Shown here piece after piece: positions 5,676-12,568 of a stretch of DNA of 20,232 bases (position 1 is its first letter; every line of letters starts with the position of its first letter). Made by a program: the position numbers and the translations under genes. Where the stretch lies: positions 1 through 20,232 of the IMG/VR virus record IMGVR_UViG_3300037245_000547; one strand, written 5' to 3'. A model generated the notes under the pieces. It saw only the letters and a program-made list of their open reading frames with translations. It did no database searches and was not told the origin of the DNA. Source of the stretch: a virus.

Positions 5676-5749
5676 CTTTCACGCGGTAGCGGTTAGCGTC
5701 TTTGATTGTTTGTTTAATTATAGTGAAGTTTAAATTTAGAAAGAACATT
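5676..5749 (+). promoter_or_regulatory. AT-rich leader before the capsid gene, possible promoter
   Basis: This 74-base gap is one of the longer untranslated gaps in the packed structural region and sits before the gene needing highest expression. It has two GGTAGC copies near 5671-5690, then an AT-rich run. TTGTTT at 5706-5711 and TTTAAA at 5729-5734 are spaced 17 bases apart but match sigma-70 consensus poorly. Phage late promoters can be unrelated to sigma-70, so this is only a candidate. Confidence 0.2.
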
Positions 5750-7141
5750 ATGAAGTATTCAGAAATGCTCGCAAAACTCAAAGCTGATAATGCAAGAATC
5801 ATCGAGATAGATGAGATGGCAGAGGTCACCGAAGAGCTTAAGGCAGAGCAAGACGTGCTCATTACCGCGTGCGAAGACATGAAGGGTAAGATTGAGCGTA
5901 AAAAGGCATCTATCGAGACAGAAGGTTATCTCGCAGACGCTACGGAAAACAAACCTATCGAAGCTAGAGTTATTGGAGCAAGTCCTATTATCCAGGAAAC
6001 AATCACCGCTGCAAAGCCGATTGTGATTCCTGCAAGAGCGGCCCGGTTCAATAACACACTGAGGGCATTTAAGGGTAAAAATGCAGATATAGACGCTTTT
6101 ACAAGTGGTATGTGGCTTTCTGCTGTACTCGGCAATGCAAGTGCCGCTCAGTTCTGTAATGAGCATGGCATTGCTATCAATGCTGTCCATGAAGAGGGCG
6201 TTAATACCACTGGTGGGTATCTAGTACCAACAGTGCTTCATACTGCGATCATCGACCTACAGAAAGAGTACGGTGTATTCAGGCGTGAATCTGAGGTTAT
6301 TCCTATGACTTCTGATAAGCTTTTGATTCCTCGTACTACGGGCGGCCTTGAAGCTTACTTTGTTGGTGAAAGCGCGGCAATGACTGAATCGACCGCAAGC
6401 TGGGACGATATAACTCTATCGGTCAAGGATTGCGGCGTATTGACTCGCGTAACAAACGCACTTGCCAGTGACGCGATTATTCAGCTTATGGATAATCTGA
6501 CAGTCAAAATCGCAAGAGCATTGGCTCTCAAAGAAGATCTTGTTGGCTTCTTGGGTACAGGCATTTCTACGCACGGCGGGATTACTGGTGTAATTACCAA
6601 GCTAATCTCTACTGCGTGGACTGCTCCAAGTGTCAACACTGGCGCCGGCCTTGTCGAATGGGGTACTGGCGTTGGCTTTGAGAATATCACGCTTGCCAAC
6701 CTAACGAGCTTGATGGCATTACTGCCGACATATGCTCGTGCTGGTGCGAAATGGCATTGCACTCCGGCATTCTTTGACTCTGTGATTACCCGGCTGGTTC
6801 TGGCTCAGGGCGGTAGCACGGCGACCGAAGTTATTAACGGTATTCCTATGACTAGAGCTCTCGGCTATCCGGTTGTCTTGAATGAGACAATGAACTCGGT
6901 CGGCACAGATCAGGAAGTAAGCTTGCTGTTTGGCGATTTAGGCCAGGCGACTACTTTTGGAGATCGTCAGCAGATGTCAATCGCGTCTTCGGACAGTGCA
7001 ACTATCGGCGGACAGTCAATGTTTGAACGTAATCAGCGTGCTTTGCGTGCTATTGAGCGGTTTGATATTGTTGCCCATGATGTCGGGACAAGCTCTGCTC
7101 CTGGCCCAATCGTTGGCTTAATGGCTTACGACGCATCGTAA
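5750..7141 (+). CDS. Major capsid protein, HK97 fold
   Basis: Builds the icosahedral shell. With the ATG at 5750 the product is 463 residues, starting MKYSEMLAKLK. A longer reading from TTG at 5702 would add 16 hydrophobic/basic residues of no family resemblance, so 5750 is preferred, although its Shine-Dalgarno site (AGAAAG) is weak. Residues about 1-65 are charged and predicted to coil, matching the cleaved scaffold-like delta domain of HK97-type capsids. The folded part begins around residue 100 and contains NTTGGYLVP (GGYLVP at 155-160), EYGVFRRE, LLIPRTTGG, the VGESAAMTES loop, LALKEDLVGFLGTG and, near the end, QRALRAIERFDIVAHD. The preceding protease gene fits processing of the N-terminal region. 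No separate scaffold gene is present. Confidence 0.93.
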   Translation: MKYSEMLAKLKADNARIIEIDEMAEVTEELKAEQDVLITACEDMKGKIERKKASIETEGYLADATENKPIEARVIGASPIIQETITAAKPIVIPARAARFNNTLRAFKGKNADIDAFTSGMWLSAVLGNASAAQFCNEHGIAINAVHEEGVNTTGGYLVPTVLHTAIIDLQKEYGVFRRESEVIPMTSDKLLIPRTTGGLEAYFVGESAAMTESTASWDDITLSVKDCGVLTRVTNALASDAIIQLMDNLTVKIARALALKEDLVGFLGTGISTHGGITGVITKLISTAWTAPSVNTGAGLVEWGTGVGFENITLANLTSLMALLPTYARAGAKWHCTPAFFDSVITRLVLAQGGSTATEVINGIPMTRALGYPVVLNETMNSVGTDQEVSLLFGDLGQATTFGDRQQMSIASSDSATIGGQSMFERNQRALRAIERFDIVAHDVGTSSAPGPIVGLMAYDAS

Positions 7142-7172: not shown

Positions 7173-7679
7173 ATGATACATGCAAATGAAGGCAAAAATG
7201 CGATTTCTCCGGGGATTGCAGTAACTAACGCAACGGCCGAACACACACTAGACCTTGACACGTCTGGCAGTGATCAGCTTAACATTCTTATCGCTTGCGG
7301 TACTCACAATTCGGCGACAGAAGCTATCGACACTGTTTCTGTCTATGAGTCTGACACTGTGACGCAGGCGACTAACATGGAACTGATTGCCGCACTGTCA
7401 AGCGGTACGGCGACAAGTACGTCGGCAAGTAATATCCTACCAACTGCTGCTCTTATGGCTCTTGGCGGGAATGTTCAGGAACTCCAGATCGACTTGCGGA
7501 AACGTAAGAAGTATGTTGGTGTTGCTGTTATCTCAGGTGTTGTCGCTGCTGGATGTGCTATTGTCACCTCCGCAAGGTTGACCCGTAATGAGAAGTCGGC
7601 AGATTCGGCGACTGAAAAAGACCAGGTTGATTTGGGTGCGACCACTGTTAGCGGTTGTATGCAGGTCATTACTGCTTAA
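7173..7679 (+). CDS. Probable head accessory (decoration-like) protein
   Basis: A 168-residue protein directly after the major capsid gene, a position often taken by head decoration proteins. I do not recognise a named family. The sequence is rich in Ser, Thr and Ala, with beta-type alternation (HTLDLDTSGSDQLNILIACG) and a basic stretch RKRKK near 109-113. A hydrophobic segment follows (VGVAVISGVVAAGCAIVTSA), more likely buried beta structure than a membrane span since the protein looks globular. There are three Cys residues. GAAAGG precedes the ATG by about 7 bases. A capsid-surface or vertex role is inferred from position only. Confidence 0.6.
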   Translation: MIHANEGKNAISPGIAVTNATAEHTLDLDTSGSDQLNILIACGTHNSATEAIDTVSVYESDTVTQATNMELIAALSSGTATSTSASNILPTAALMALGGNVQELQIDLRKRKKYVGVAVISGVVAAGCAIVTSARLTRNEKSADSATEKDQVDLGATTVSGCMQVITA

Positions 7680-7684
7680 GAATT

Positions 7685-7730
7685 TCCTTTATCTGGGGTC
7701 GGCTCGTGGCCGGCCCTGATAAGGGGCTTT
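7685..7730 (+). terminator. Long imperfect hairpin, candidate transcription attenuator
   Basis: The inner stem pairs GGGTCGGC (7696-7703) with GCCGGCCC (7709-7716), one G-T wobble, around the loop TCGTG. After a small internal loop, CCTTTATC (7686-7693) pairs with GATAAGGG (7718-7725), again with one wobble. In total there are about 16 pairs. Only a short T run (7728-7730) follows, so it would be a leaky intrinsic terminator or an RNA-stabilising 3' end for the abundant capsid messages. Confidence 0.5.
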
Positions 7731-7736
7731 AAAGAT

Positions 7737-7742
7737 AAAGGG
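7737..7742 (+). promoter_or_regulatory. Ribosome binding site for the 30-residue microprotein
   Basis: AAAGGG lies 8 bases before the ATG at 7751 but only 2 bases before the in-frame ATG at 7745. The spacing picks 7751 as the start. Confidence 0.55.
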
Positions 7743-7750
7743 AAATGATA

Positions 7751-7843
7751 ATGAGTGACTTGCAACAGATATTCGTGATTTGGTGGGGTTTAACCACTGG
7801 AGTATGTTCAATAATTATAGCGATTAACAGTTTTAAAAGATAA
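7751..7843 (+). CDS. 30-residue single-span membrane microprotein
   Basis: A very short gene reading MSDLQQIFVIWWGLTTG, then a hydrophobic CSIIIAIN stretch and a final SFKR. Residues about 7-27 are hydrophobic enough for one membrane helix with a basic C-terminal tail, suggesting the C terminus is cytoplasmic. It has a well-spaced AAAGGG and is followed after 13 bases by the next gene, whose own AAGGA begins at the stop codon. It is too small for family recognition. A holin-like or membrane-anchoring function is possible but not shown. It could also be a leader peptide controlling the downstream gene. Confidence 0.5.
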   Translation: MSDLQQIFVIWWGLTTGVCSIIIAINSFKR

Positions 7844-7856
7844 AGGAAAATAAATT

Positions 7857-9038
7857 ATGCTAAAACTAAACCTCGGATCGGGGAAACTAAAACTAAAAGG
7901 CTTTGAGAACATCGACAAGATGTACGGAACCAGTGTGTTTCCGCTGGATTACGATTCTGGCGAAGTGGACGAAATATACGCCTCTCATATCCTCGAACAT
8001 TTCAGCAAGCATGAAACCGCAAGGGTGCTTCGTGATTGGGTAGACAAACTACGTCCGGGTGGAGTGCTTAAAATAGCTGTACCGGACTTTGATAAAATAG
8101 CGTTGGCTTATGTTAATCAGGAAAAGCAAGAGCATTCGCCAAACGATCTAATTATGGGCGGTCAGACAGACGAAAACGACTTCCATAAGGCTATATTCAA
8201 CAAGACCATACTAACAAAACTATTAGAGCAAGCTGGTCTGTCCGACATTCGCGCGTGGGAATCACAAGTTCAGGATTGTGCATCCATGCCGATAAGCTTG
8301 AACCTTGAAGGCACAAAACCCGGCGGGTCTGAAATCAAGATACAGGCCGTTATGACATTACCGCGATTAGGATTTACAGCCAATATGTTCGCCGCAGCAA
8401 AAGTATTCCCTAAGCTTGGAATCGGCTTTGATACTGCATCGGGTGTATTCTGGGGACAAAAGCTTTCCAGGTTGATTGATAAGCACCTAAACGATGGAAC
8501 CGAGTTCATTATAACGCTCGATTATGACACAGCTTTCAGGGAAGAACACGTAATTCGTCTCTTGCAATTGATGGCAGAGAATCCAGAGGTTGACGCTATT
8601 GTTCCTGTCCAGACAAAAAGGGAAAACGAAACTCCTATGTTTGCCATAGTTAATGACGATGGTAGCGGTAAGAATGTCGCTCTTACTGAGTTTGAGCCGG
8701 AACTTGTACCGATAATGAATGGGCATTTTGGACTTACTATATTCCGCGTGTCTGCATTCTCTGGACTTGAAAAGCCGTGGTTCTTACCTCATCCAAACGA
8801 GGATGGCGACTGGAACGAAGGCCGGATAGACGAAGACATTCACTTCTGGCATAACTGGTGGAAGTGCAAGCGACGAACATGCCTCGCCACAACAGTCATG
8901 CTTGGTCACTTGCAAATGATGTGTACGTTCCCAGGCCCGGCAAGGACAGGATTTAAGCCAGTGCATTATTACATGAATCAATTAGACAGTGGCCAATGGC
9001 CAGAACATTGCCTGCCCAAAGTGGAGTTATTGAAATGA
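7857..9038 (+). CDS. Methyltransferase-like / glycosyltransferase-like fusion protein
   Basis: Two predicted enzyme domains in one 393-residue chain. Residues 1-145 resemble class I SAM-dependent methyltransferases of the type found with sugar-modifying enzymes: the SAM loop LNLGSGK at 4-10, EIYASHILEHF at 39-49, then KLRPGGVLKIAVPDFD at 64-79. Residues about 160-393 look like a GT-A glycosyltransferase: FIITLDYDTAF with a DxD-type motif at 222-224, MNGHFGLTIFR near 287-297, an acidic RIDEDIHFW at 323-331, and His351 in LGHLQ as a possible metal ligand. No signal peptide or membrane span is seen, so it acts in the cytoplasm. It sits between the capsid and head-tail joining genes. Substrate is unknown: a virion protein or surface glycan is more likely than DNA given the context (inference). 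AAGGA precedes the start by 9 bases. Confidence 0.75.
   Translation: MLKLNLGSGKLKLKGFENIDKMYGTSVFPLDYDSGEVDEIYASHILEHFSKHETARVLRDWVDKLRPGGVLKIAVPDFDKIALAYVNQEKQEHSPNDLIMGGQTDENDFHKAIFNKTILTKLLEQAGLSDIRAWESQVQDCASMPISLNLEGTKPGGSEIKIQAVMTLPRLGFTANMFAAAKVFPKLGIGFDTASGVFWGQKLSRLIDKHLNDGTEFIITLDYDTAFREEHVIRLLQLMAENPEVDAIVPVQTKRENETPMFAIVNDDGSGKNVALTEFEPELVPIMNGHFGLTIFRVSAFSGLEKPWFLPHPNEDGDWNEGRIDEDIHFWHNWWKCKRRTCLATTVMLGHLQMMCTFPGPARTGFKPVHYYMNQLDSGQWPEHCLPKVELLK
9023..9026 (+). promoter_or_regulatory. Ribosome binding site selecting the start at 9035
   Basis: GGAG lies 8 bases before the ATG at 9035. A longer reading from 8996 would overlap the previous gene by 43 bases and has no comparable site. 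Confidence 0.5.
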
Positions 9039-9190
9039 AAATAGAACTATTAAAGGCTTACGGGATGTCGGGAAAGGGCGAAATCCTTAACCCGTCCCCG
9101 GTCATTGCAGACATGTTAATTAAACGTAAAGTAGCCAAAGCTGTAATCGTAAAGAAAAAGAGGGCTAAAAAATGCTCGAATACCAAATAA
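9035..9190 (+). CDS. Small basic phage protein of the head-tail region
   Basis: A 51-residue protein starting MKIELLKAYG, with GKGEILNPSPVIADMLIKRKVA and a Lys/Arg-rich end (VKKKRAKK). The pattern of a short beta-rich start, a central Gly-x-Gly-Glu turn and a conserved 'A-x-x-L-I-K-R-x-V-A' helix is familiar in short phage proteins encoded just before head-tail connector genes, whose function is unknown. The start at 9035 overlaps the previous stop (ATGA), and the end overlaps the next gene by 19 bases, so all three are probably translationally coupled. The basic tail could bind nucleic acid or the acidic face of a connector. Confidence 0.65.
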   Translation: MKIELLKAYGMSGKGEILNPSPVIADMLIKRKVAKAVIVKKKRAKKCSNTK

Positions 9191-9741
9191 CAACACCGCC
9201 AGCAGTAGAACCATTGACACTGGACGAAGCAAAGCTGAATCTCCGTGTTGATTGCGATGCTGACAATGCCCTAATTACGGCTTTGATTATCGCTGCCCGC
9301 AGATGGTGCGAGCAATACGAGAATCGGGCGTATATTACGCAGACGATCACAGCAAAGACATTCTGGCTGCCGAGTGAGATTGTATTGCCGTTGCCTTTAT
9401 TGCAGTCAGTGACTTCGATTACTTATGTTGACTTGGCTGGTGACGAGCAGACCTTATCGTCTGATCTGTACGATGTTGACACTTATCGCGAGCCGGGACG
9501 GATAACGAAGGCTTATAATGCAACATACCCATCTGCAAGAGGCGATATTAACGGCGTAACGATAGTATATAAAGCAGGTTACGGCGATGCCGCTGCCGAT
9601 GTACCGGCAGAGACGAAACAGGCTATGCAGTTGTTTATAGCTCACCTGTACGAGAACCGTGTGGCCGTTACTGAGATAAACATGAATACCTTACCGCTTG
9701 GAGTTAAGGCATTGCTGAATAAAAGGGTTAAAACAGTATGA
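9172..9741 (+). CDS. Head-tail connector protein, gp6/phiE125 gp8-like
   Basis: An adaptor expected to form the ring beneath the portal. The 189-residue sequence has the usual layout: PPAVEPLTLDEAKLNLRVD near 8-27, then a helical DNALITALIIAARRWCEQY and ENRAYITQT. A central beta region (LPLPLLQSVTSITYVD) follows, then YKAGYGDAAADVPAETKQAMQ and the ending LIAHLYENR-type helix. These are hallmarks of the phage gp6-like / phiE125 gp8 group. GAGGG lies 7 bases before the ATG. It overlaps the following adaptor gene by ATGA at 9738-9741. Confidence 0.88.
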   Translation: MLEYQITTPPAVEPLTLDEAKLNLRVDCDADNALITALIIAARRWCEQYENRAYITQTITAKTFWLPSEIVLPLPLLQSVTSITYVDLAGDEQTLSSDLYDVDTYREPGRITKAYNATYPSARGDINGVTIVYKAGYGDAAADVPAETKQAMQLFIAHLYENRVAVTEINMNTLPLGVKALLNKRVKTV

Positions 9742-10951: not shown

Positions 10952-12568
10952 ATGGCAGACCAAACTTTCTATATTGACCCAACTATAGGCAATGATGGGA
11001 CGGGCACAGAAGGCAATCCGTCCTTGCCGTATAAGACAATCAGTGCGGCGATAGATGATGTTAGTGCTACGGGGGCGGATGTTGCCACAATACGCTTAGT
11101 GGATGGTACTTATGATAAGATTACGCAGGTGTATTCAGGCGATTGGAGGCTACAGTTTGACTCCGGTGAGGCAGGTACAAATATTGTTATTCGGCCAGAC
11201 ACAGCAGAAGTCATAACATTAGATTTTGATGTCGAGTCAACTTCTGCTTATGCCGTAAATTATGCAGGTACAAGCGATGGGATTCATGTCACTTTCAACG
11301 ACCTAATAATGGTGTGTGATGCAAGGGATCAAGGGTTTGCTTTGGACGCAGATTCTATTGGGTCATCGTTGACTTTGAATAATATAAGCATTGCTAATAC
11401 CGCATCTGGAGTAGTTATTTCCGTAGCCTTGGGGACTGGGCCTTTCCAGAAACTAGAAATAAACGACTGCGATTTGGCTTGCGATGGAGCAGGTCAGAAT
11501 GTAATCTTTTCCCAGAATGATATAACGGACGGTATTTATATCACCAATTCTACACTTCGCCATTTTGCAACAGATATAAACTCCAATGCTATCTCAGCTT
11601 CAGAAACGGCCACCGTTACTAATTTGTCGATTATAGACAGTACGATCCAAGGTGGCCGGAGAGGTCTTATATCTCAGCGATGGGCGAAAAACATATTACT
11701 GGATAATGTAGATTTCACATCTACGCAGATAACAGTGGGGGATGATGCTGGCCCTTCACTTGTCTGTGGGTATGAGTGGGATCAAAATGCAGACTGGGCT
11801 ACAGGCCAAGCATATAGTATTGGCGATCTTAAACAAAGCGTAGGCACTTTATGGGAATGCCATCAAGCAGTAGGGTCGTCGGCAGCTACAGAAGAACCGG
11901 GTGTTGGGGCAACATATAAGCAGTTTTGGGCGTTATATACAGGCATAAATTTAGTCGCCAGAAATTGCAGTTTTACTATTGATGACGTAGGCGCGGCTCA
12001 TGCTTGCGGTATTTTCTATGGCGTAAACGCTGTATTGATAGGTTGTACTGCGTCTGGCGGGGACAGTCAGTTTGTAGTTAAAGGCGAGAATGCAGTTATA
12101 TGTTACTGTTCTGCAACAGGTGCAAATCCATGTAGCGTAAAAGGAGCAGACAGTTCTAGAGTTTTCAATAACTACTTTAGAGCTACATCAGGCTTCGCTT
12201 TAGGCGTAAACGATCAAGACGGATTCTACCCAGTTAAGCAAAGGATATTTAACAACATACTGATAGGCACAGGTGGAGGTATACCTTTTACTAACAACAA
12301 CAACCCGACGCCCGACCTATTTGCTGATAATAATATCTTTTGGAATGAGACAGGTACGCAGTTGGCGGCATTAGGATTCGCTGGCAATCAAACATCAATT
12401 GCCGAGATACAGGCTTATTACGAAGACTATGTATTCCCGACAAATGAAGCGAATGGCTTAGAACAAGACCCTGGCAGTGCAACTGGAATCTTAATTGATG
12501 ACGAATGGTACGGCATTCCTGGTACTGGTGGTGGCGTAAGTAAATCAAGAATATTCGGAGCAATGTAA
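10952..12568 (+). CDS. Right-handed beta-helix protein with inserted CBM5/12-like module
   Basis: A 538-residue predicted virion-surface protein. The opening TFYIDPTIGNDGTGTEGNP, then PYKTISAAID, is the typical cap of pectate-lyase-like parallel beta-helices. Repeating short strands with NN, D and G turns follow (LTLNNISIAN, KLEINDCDLAC, IYITNSTLRH, NLSIIDSTIQGG, NILLDNVDF, RIFNNILIG). At about 281-328 an insertion has the aromatic pattern of carbohydrate-binding modules of the chitin-binding 5/12 type: DWATGQAYSIGDLKQ, GTLWECHQA, then YKQFWAL. The likely job is binding, and perhaps cutting, a host surface polysaccharide. No catalytic residues can be assigned. No signal peptide is seen. Its site between neck and tail-terminator genes is unusual for a tail spike, so a neck whisker or head fibre is also possible. 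Confidence 0.75.
   Translation: MADQTFYIDPTIGNDGTGTEGNPSLPYKTISAAIDDVSATGADVATIRLVDGTYDKITQVYSGDWRLQFDSGEAGTNIVIRPDTAEVITLDFDVESTSAYAVNYAGTSDGIHVTFNDLIMVCDARDQGFALDADSIGSSLTLNNISIANTASGVVISVALGTGPFQKLEINDCDLACDGAGQNVIFSQNDITDGIYITNSTLRHFATDINSNAISASETATVTNLSIIDSTIQGGRRGLISQRWAKNILLDNVDFTSTQITVGDDAGPSLVCGYEWDQNADWATGQAYSIGDLKQSVGTLWECHQAVGSSAATEEPGVGATYKQFWALYTGINLVARNCSFTIDDVGAAHACGIFYGVNAVLIGCTASGGDSQFVVKGENAVICYCSATGANPCSVKGADSSRVFNNYFRATSGFALGVNDQDGFYPVKQRIFNNILIGTGGGIPFTNNNNPTPDLFADNNIFWNETGTQLAALGFAGNQTSIAEIQAYYEDYVFPTNEANGLEQDPGSATGILIDDEWYGIPGTGGGVSKSRIFGAM

Follow-up and report, generated by a model that had tools for sequence, protein, structure and literature searches.

Why does a tailed phage keep a methyltransferase and a glycosyltransferase (GT) in one polypeptide among its head genes, and on what would such an enzyme act? 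The locus that raises this question belongs to the phage record IMGVR_UViG_3300037245_000547, of which positions 1 to 20,232 were analysed (the window, 20,232 nucleotides). The fusion gene occupies positions 7857-9038 and, in the list of open reading frames and in the alignment of its relatives, is a single frame with an ATG start, 393 codons (393 aa) and no internal stops; it and the features given below between 5744 and 9741 lie on the plus strand. A first-pass annotation of the letters alone had read the protein as a SAM-binding domain joined to a GT-A-like domain, had called the combination unusual, and had proposed either modification of capsid sugars or alteration of host surface glycans.

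The N-terminal half (residues 1-151, 7857-8310) matches the methyltransferase family PHROG 6636 (E 3e-9) and, at scores weaker than the curated cut-offs, the Pfam families Methyltransf_11 (E 7e-4) and Methyltransf_23 (E 1e-3). Its SAM motif I, LNLGSG (residues 4-9, 7866-7883), follows the pattern LxLGxG found in 11/11 aligned domains, and motif I together with Asp20, the acidic residue after strand 2, is retained in 10 of these 11, the exception being L026. In a Foldseek search of the PDB the N-terminal half of an AlphaFold2 model of the fusion resembled class I O-methyltransferases (3mcz, E 2e-5). Family match and motifs support the assignment of this half as a class I SAM methyltransferase, its activity being a prediction.

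A sequence search of the PDB gave no meaningful matches, and for this reason fold comparison was used, also for the C-terminal half (residues 156-393, 8322-9035). The AlphaFold2 model has a modest mean pLDDT of 67.6, with the motif I strand badly placed, and its confidence is about 70-87 across most of residues 160-350. The PDB fold matches of this half found by Foldseek are the glycosyltransferase complex 9u7h, STIV A197, COLGALT1 and SpsA, all of them GT-A enzymes; A197 (2c0n) is the second-best PDB match (E 5e-7, TM 0.64 over the target). A structure search of BFVD agreed, and neither search placed the second half outside the GT-A fold. The family match to Glyco_trans_2_3 has an E of 2e-3 for the window protein and of 1.7e-7 for the best relative. 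The DxD motif Asp222-Tyr-Asp224 (8520-8528), the expected metal/nucleotide-sugar site, and His351 (8907-8909), a candidate third metal ligand, are unchanged in nine aligned relatives and invariant over 14 GT domains, and the DYD and GH motifs are present in distant members too. Asp325 and Asp327 of the sequence Asp325-Glu-Asp327 (8829-8837), a candidate catalytic acidic motif by comparison with GT2/GT-A enzymes, are also invariant in the GT-domain alignments, distant members included. Fold comparison with the model supports a GT-A glycosyltransferase with predicted activity. Both halves of the earlier reading, the SAM-binding LNLGSG domain and the GT-A-like domain with DYD at 222-224 and His351, therefore held up under the structure prediction and fold search that had been suggested for them, as did their union in one chain. 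No transmembrane segments were found in the fusion protein (highest 19-residue hydropathy mean 1.16; maximum 1.48 among the ten sequences tested), and a membrane-bound host-envelope glycosyltransferase of the GtrII type was rejected on this ground.

The fusion is intact in ten close relatives with 61-81% identity (L001, L004, L005, L007, L008, L009, L013, L014, L019 and L024), and also in the remoter relatives L026, L032, L037, L039, L040 and L048. The only split close relative is L002 (3440-3500), where a gap of about 22 nucleotides exactly at the methyltransferase/GT junction shifts the frame and produces two overlapping open reading frames; this could be a real deletion or split, or an assembly fault. 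Resolution of the fusion into two genes in all relatives, which the first-pass annotation had named as the finding that would count against it, was thus confined to L002. Judged from these alignments, the fusion is real and not a chance read-through.

The gene was correctly said to stand between capsid and connector genes, but the intervening gene for p168 had been left out. The order is an HK97-type major capsid protein (MCP; 5744-7141; Pfam Phage_capsid E 8e-41, PHROG 10), p168 (7173-7679), the fusion enzyme, a 51-aa small gene (9035-9190; PHROG 829, E 9e-4) whose ATG overlaps the enzyme stop codon (ATGA), and a gp6-like head-tail connector (9172-9741; Pfam Phage_connect_1 E 8e-9, PHROG 442). 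The loci were collected for the most part through their GT sequence, and position played no part in any retrieval. Among the 38 unique loci with enough flank, the MCP gene lies at most 1.5 kb upstream of the GT in 36, the p168 gene at most 1 kb upstream in 35, and the gp6 connector follows within 1.5 kb in 35. The exceptions include L028, where the GT stands alone, apparently amid tail genes; L044/L109, where it directly follows the capsid gene and p168 is missing; and L106, where two further genes separate p168 from the enzyme. Elsewhere in the window, a 538-aa protein encoded between the head-tail and tail genes (10952-12568) gave no significant family match; it has one weak match to a carbohydrate-binding module (CBM_5_12, E 0.05) and is a possible fibre.

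p168 has the highest Ser+Thr content of the 20 window proteins (21.4%, with two others close behind). Its predicted fold is a beta-sandwich of seven strands (pLDDT 68.9), and its model found weak, unspecific matches in the PDB (best E 6.5e-4); because the fold has no specific PDB match, position and size are the grounds for regarding it as a decoration protein. In other loci p168 matches PHROG 5707, which is annotated as of unknown function.

Identity comparisons connect p168 with the GT. Between the window and L001 the head genes have diverged to 43% (TerL), 36% (portal), 39% (protease) and 40% (MCP) identity, while p168, the methyltransferase half and the GT half are 86%, 89% and 75% identical. 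Mantel correlations over 14 loci were 0.92 for p168-GT, 0.76 for methyltransferase-GT and 0.24 for MCP-GT; the value for portal-gp6 was 0.94, over 10 loci. Within the closest set of loci they were 0.83 for p168-GT, 0.42 for p168-methyltransferase and 0.34 for methyltransferase-GT, and on bootstrapping p168-GT exceeded the other two in at least 98.9% of resamples (at most 1.1% reversed). GT identity thus follows p168 more closely than it follows the methyltransferase of its own chain, and the MCP is the head protein whose identity follows the enzyme least. Since p168 and the GT are near neighbours, part of this co-inheritance may be linkage; however, the methyltransferase domain lies between them, so linkage alone would predict a p168-methyltransferase correlation at least as high as that of p168 with the GT. 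What is more, a scan with p168 sequence from the GT-only clade gave 80 loci, with a GT downstream in 75/75 having at least 300 b of flank (47/47 unique), a count that represents one clade and not independent events. No p168 was detected at any position of the L028 or L044 record, both of which may be fragments; if it is truly missing, another acceptor is required there. The methyltransferase halves, judged from synonymous divergence, recombine separately as well: between the window and L001 the value is 0.56 for the methyltransferase and saturated for the GT, and between L007 and L019 it is 0.74 and 2.75, respectively. As for the surrounding genes, the MCP gene has been replaced between the window and L007/L019 (48-50% identity) while TerL/protease and p168 stay 84-93% identical, and by this comparison there is strong mosaicism among the head genes of these phages.

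On balance we favour, with somewhat better than even confidence, a soluble enzyme whose two domains modify the phage's own particle, with p168 as the likeliest acceptor and the sugar subsequently methylated. The GT-A half would use a nucleotide-sugar of the host as donor and attach its sugar to a virion protein, Ser/Thr of p168 being the likeliest site and the MCP the second choice. p168 would sit on the capsid as a decoration protein; the methyltransferase half would next methylate that sugar, or another transferred along with it, the product being a methyl-capped glycan, and the purpose would be an altered particle surface. We infer catalysis, acceptor, sugar, order of steps, the role of p168 and purpose alike from gene content and comparison. 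p168 is proposed mainly for its co-inheritance with the GT, the downstream GT in 75/75 loci and its richness in Ser and Thr.

The same enzyme could instead glycosylate and methylate the MCP or another head protein, p168 being a mere neighbour. The loci L044/L109, in which the GT directly follows the capsid gene and p168 is absent, would suit such a target, and so would the glycans carried by the MCPs of the mycobacteriophages Che8 and Rita (PMC11256854) and the glycosylated coat protein of STIV (PMC10551542). Among close relatives, however, GT identity correlates with that of p168 (0.78-0.92) and not with that of the MCP (r 0.04-0.24), and the same enzyme accompanies capsid proteins that are about 40% identical; we consider this account unlikely, at roughly one chance in a handful. 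The earlier proposal that capsid sugars are methylated is accordingly kept as to a virion target and narrowed as to the protein, p168 being a better candidate than the MCP. Its other branch, alteration of glycans on the host surface or of the precursors of these, for example to block competing phages, is improbable in our judgement. The donor sugar is necessarily host-derived, and some phages use GT and sugar-methyltransferase genes to change host envelopes, but the enzyme is soluble, with no membrane segment, its gene lies inside the head gene run with no excess of promoter or terminator signals and keeps this place in diverged phages, and it is co-inherited with p168. Of the two roles left side by side at first, modification of the virion is the better supported by these same features.

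A small molecule or the phage DNA, as in base hypermodification, seems to us a very improbable target. At 31-1167 the window does encode an N6/N4 DNA methylase fused to a ParB-like domain (PHROG 498), directly upstream of a probable small terminase gene; against this, the enzymes nearest in fold to the GT half (collagen galactosyltransferase, STIV A197, SpsA) have proteins or polysaccharides as substrates, the window showed no recognisable gene for base hypermodification, and both gene position and linkage to p168 would be left unexplained. A different doubt concerns the methyltransferase half, which in many members might be structural or substrate-binding and non-catalytic, so that glycosylation alone would take place. 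A decayed N-terminal domain that has lost motif I but is still fused to the GT is found in L042, L043, L110 and L113, and L026 has LDLGAG as motif I and has lost Asp20. The window and its close relatives, on the other hand, retain motif I and Asp20, with the domain under purifying selection (dN/dS about 0.07-0.26), and we hold a non-catalytic role to have only a small chance of being right.

The preferred reading, a particle-decorating enzyme with p168 as acceptor, draws further support from the domain architectures of the family. Besides the fusion, the GT occurs alone, in the order methyltransferase-FkbM-GT (L025, L036 and L114) and in the reversed order FkbM-methyltransferase-GT (L106); the FkbM domain is a Pfam call in L025 and L106 and was read from similar sequence in L036 and L114. 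In L047 and L112 an unrelated methyltransferase (DUF1698/Methyltransf_23) is fused to the GT. The four proteins with a decayed methyltransferase domain form one tree group with moderate support (72/72). On the GT tree the architecture labels require eight changes against a minimum of four, FkbM accounting for three or four and the DUF1698 fusion for one; these counts are approximate, as the tree has several long branches. By this tree several gains or losses of domains appear to be needed. Sulfotransferase genes adjoin the enzyme in L025 (by Pfam) and in L106 (by similar sequence). Such swapping of domains around one GT fits a sugar-modifying chain in which various caps are recruited to a single transferase. 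It is possible, and we put it forward tentatively, that p168 and the GT form a modular particle-glycosylation cassette, matched to each other and exchanged across unrelated capsids, whose modifying domain is swapped, decayed or lost; with three kinds of methyltransferase and sulfotransferase neighbours, phage surface chemistry might then vary as a cassette. The genes concerned beside the p168/GT module lie at 8141-8785 in L025 and at 1374-2069 and 2056-2685 in L106; they are sulfotransferase-like and, in L106, include a cytidylyltransferase/pyrophosphatase-like gene.

The enzyme gene is part of a co-oriented run of head genes, and a purine-rich ribosome-binding stretch precedes its ATG at 7857. 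Promoter- and terminator-like sites around it showed no excess over shuffled sequences, and on this basis the idea of a moron expressed independently, from a promoter and up to a terminator of its own, was rejected. Folding and comparison of relatives revealed, in the spacer that separates p168 from the enzyme, a conserved RNA hairpin (7685-7742), whose outer arm CCTTTATC (7686-7693) is complementary to GATAAAGG at 7734-7741 and again at 7839-7846, in the ribosome-binding region of the enzyme. A strong hairpin is found here in almost all relatives, its outer arm CCUUUAUC being able to pair with GAUAAAGG of the enzyme's ribosome-binding region, and in several of them an alternative pairing is available to the outer arm. 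The corresponding regions include L001 5894-6012 and L005 4464-4574 as well as L009, L014, L019 and L032; in L005 pairing is preserved through a compensated double change, and folding z-scores for six sequences range from -3.1 to -5.7. There were no Rfam matches within the window. The hairpin may act as a translational attenuator that holds the enzyme below the levels of its structural neighbours. Between hairpin and enzyme the window has an inserted mini-ORF for a 32-aa hydrophobic single helix (7745-7843), which most relatives do not have; L004 has a different ORF, of 105 aa, at this place.

The family of the GT half comprises at least 69 distinct loci in uncultivated phages; a profile search with this half gave 113 related stretches in viral contigs, of which 80 were kept. 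Six of the close loci derive from a single metagenome. A broader GT profile search of genome contigs gave nine matches, all on MAG contigs, whose names (Phycisphaerales/Planctomycetaceae, Coriobacteriia, Rhodobacteraceae, Deltaproteobacteria, Lentisphaerae and others) are weak evidence of hosts; a scan of genome contigs with close relatives only yielded no confirmed relatives. Searched by tblastn with the whole fusion, each of its halves and a number of relatives, 50,697 phage records gave no convincing homologue (best about 26% identity, E 3e-4 to 6e-4), the fusion having no match at a threshold of 1e-5, and p168 found no convincing match among annotated phages.

To our knowledge few cases of glycosylated phage particles have been recognised, mainly among mycobacteriophages. 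A literature search whose scope lay mostly outside subscription journals found no description of the present gene arrangement. Systems of this kind are known; as far as we have searched, the family, its place, its partner and the domain swapping are new. We have here a widespread enzyme family of uncultivated phages with a fixed place in the head cluster and a specific candidate acceptor. If the proposal is true, glycosylation of phage coats would be commoner than isolates suggest, coat chemistry (sugar plus methyl or sulfate) would be exchanged as a cassette, and there would be a bearing on particle adhesion, stability and recognition.

The known systems make the arrangement less unusual than the first-pass annotation claimed. 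A verified case is A064R of the algal virus PBCV-1, in which GT and sugar methyltransferase domains are joined and which has been shown biochemically to add and methylate rhamnose on the capsid glycan (PMC7019647). Like the window protein, it is a virus-encoded GT with a sugar methyltransferase in one chain, but its methyltransferase is C-terminal and preceded by two GT domains, whereas the protein of our tailed phage has one GT and an N-terminal methyltransferase; and A064R acts on the MCP glycan, whereas the target of the window enzyme is a proposal from sequence. In the phage Podoviridae sp. ctKR88 (MW202524) the GT half has a distant homologue (E 2e-15), and the gene immediately after it is homologous to the methyltransferase half (E 2e-9). 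There the two are separate genes, with about 26% identity, in a different type of phage, and p168 was not found among the six ctKR88 proteins tested. The uncultured Caudovirales proteins A0A6J5M7M7 and A0A6J5T3W3, among the best BFVD matches, have GT-A domains, and one is annotated as a methyltransferase FkbM, which indicates that such fusions are already present in deposited data; these proteins are far longer (788 and 1119 aa) and about 15% identical to the window protein. The C-terminal half shares its GT-A fold with A197 of the archaeal virus STIV, a small, essential GT believed to modify the coat protein (PMC10551542), which is a single domain from an unrelated virus with about 14% identity to the window GT. 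Among tailed phages, Che8 and Rita have virion proteins, the MCP included, with covalently bound glycans, as we propose for a virion protein of the window phage, and the related phage Maravista has putative GT genes near the 3' end of its genome (PMC11256854). Those genes do not lie beside the capsid gene, whereas the enzyme described here is encoded within the head cluster.
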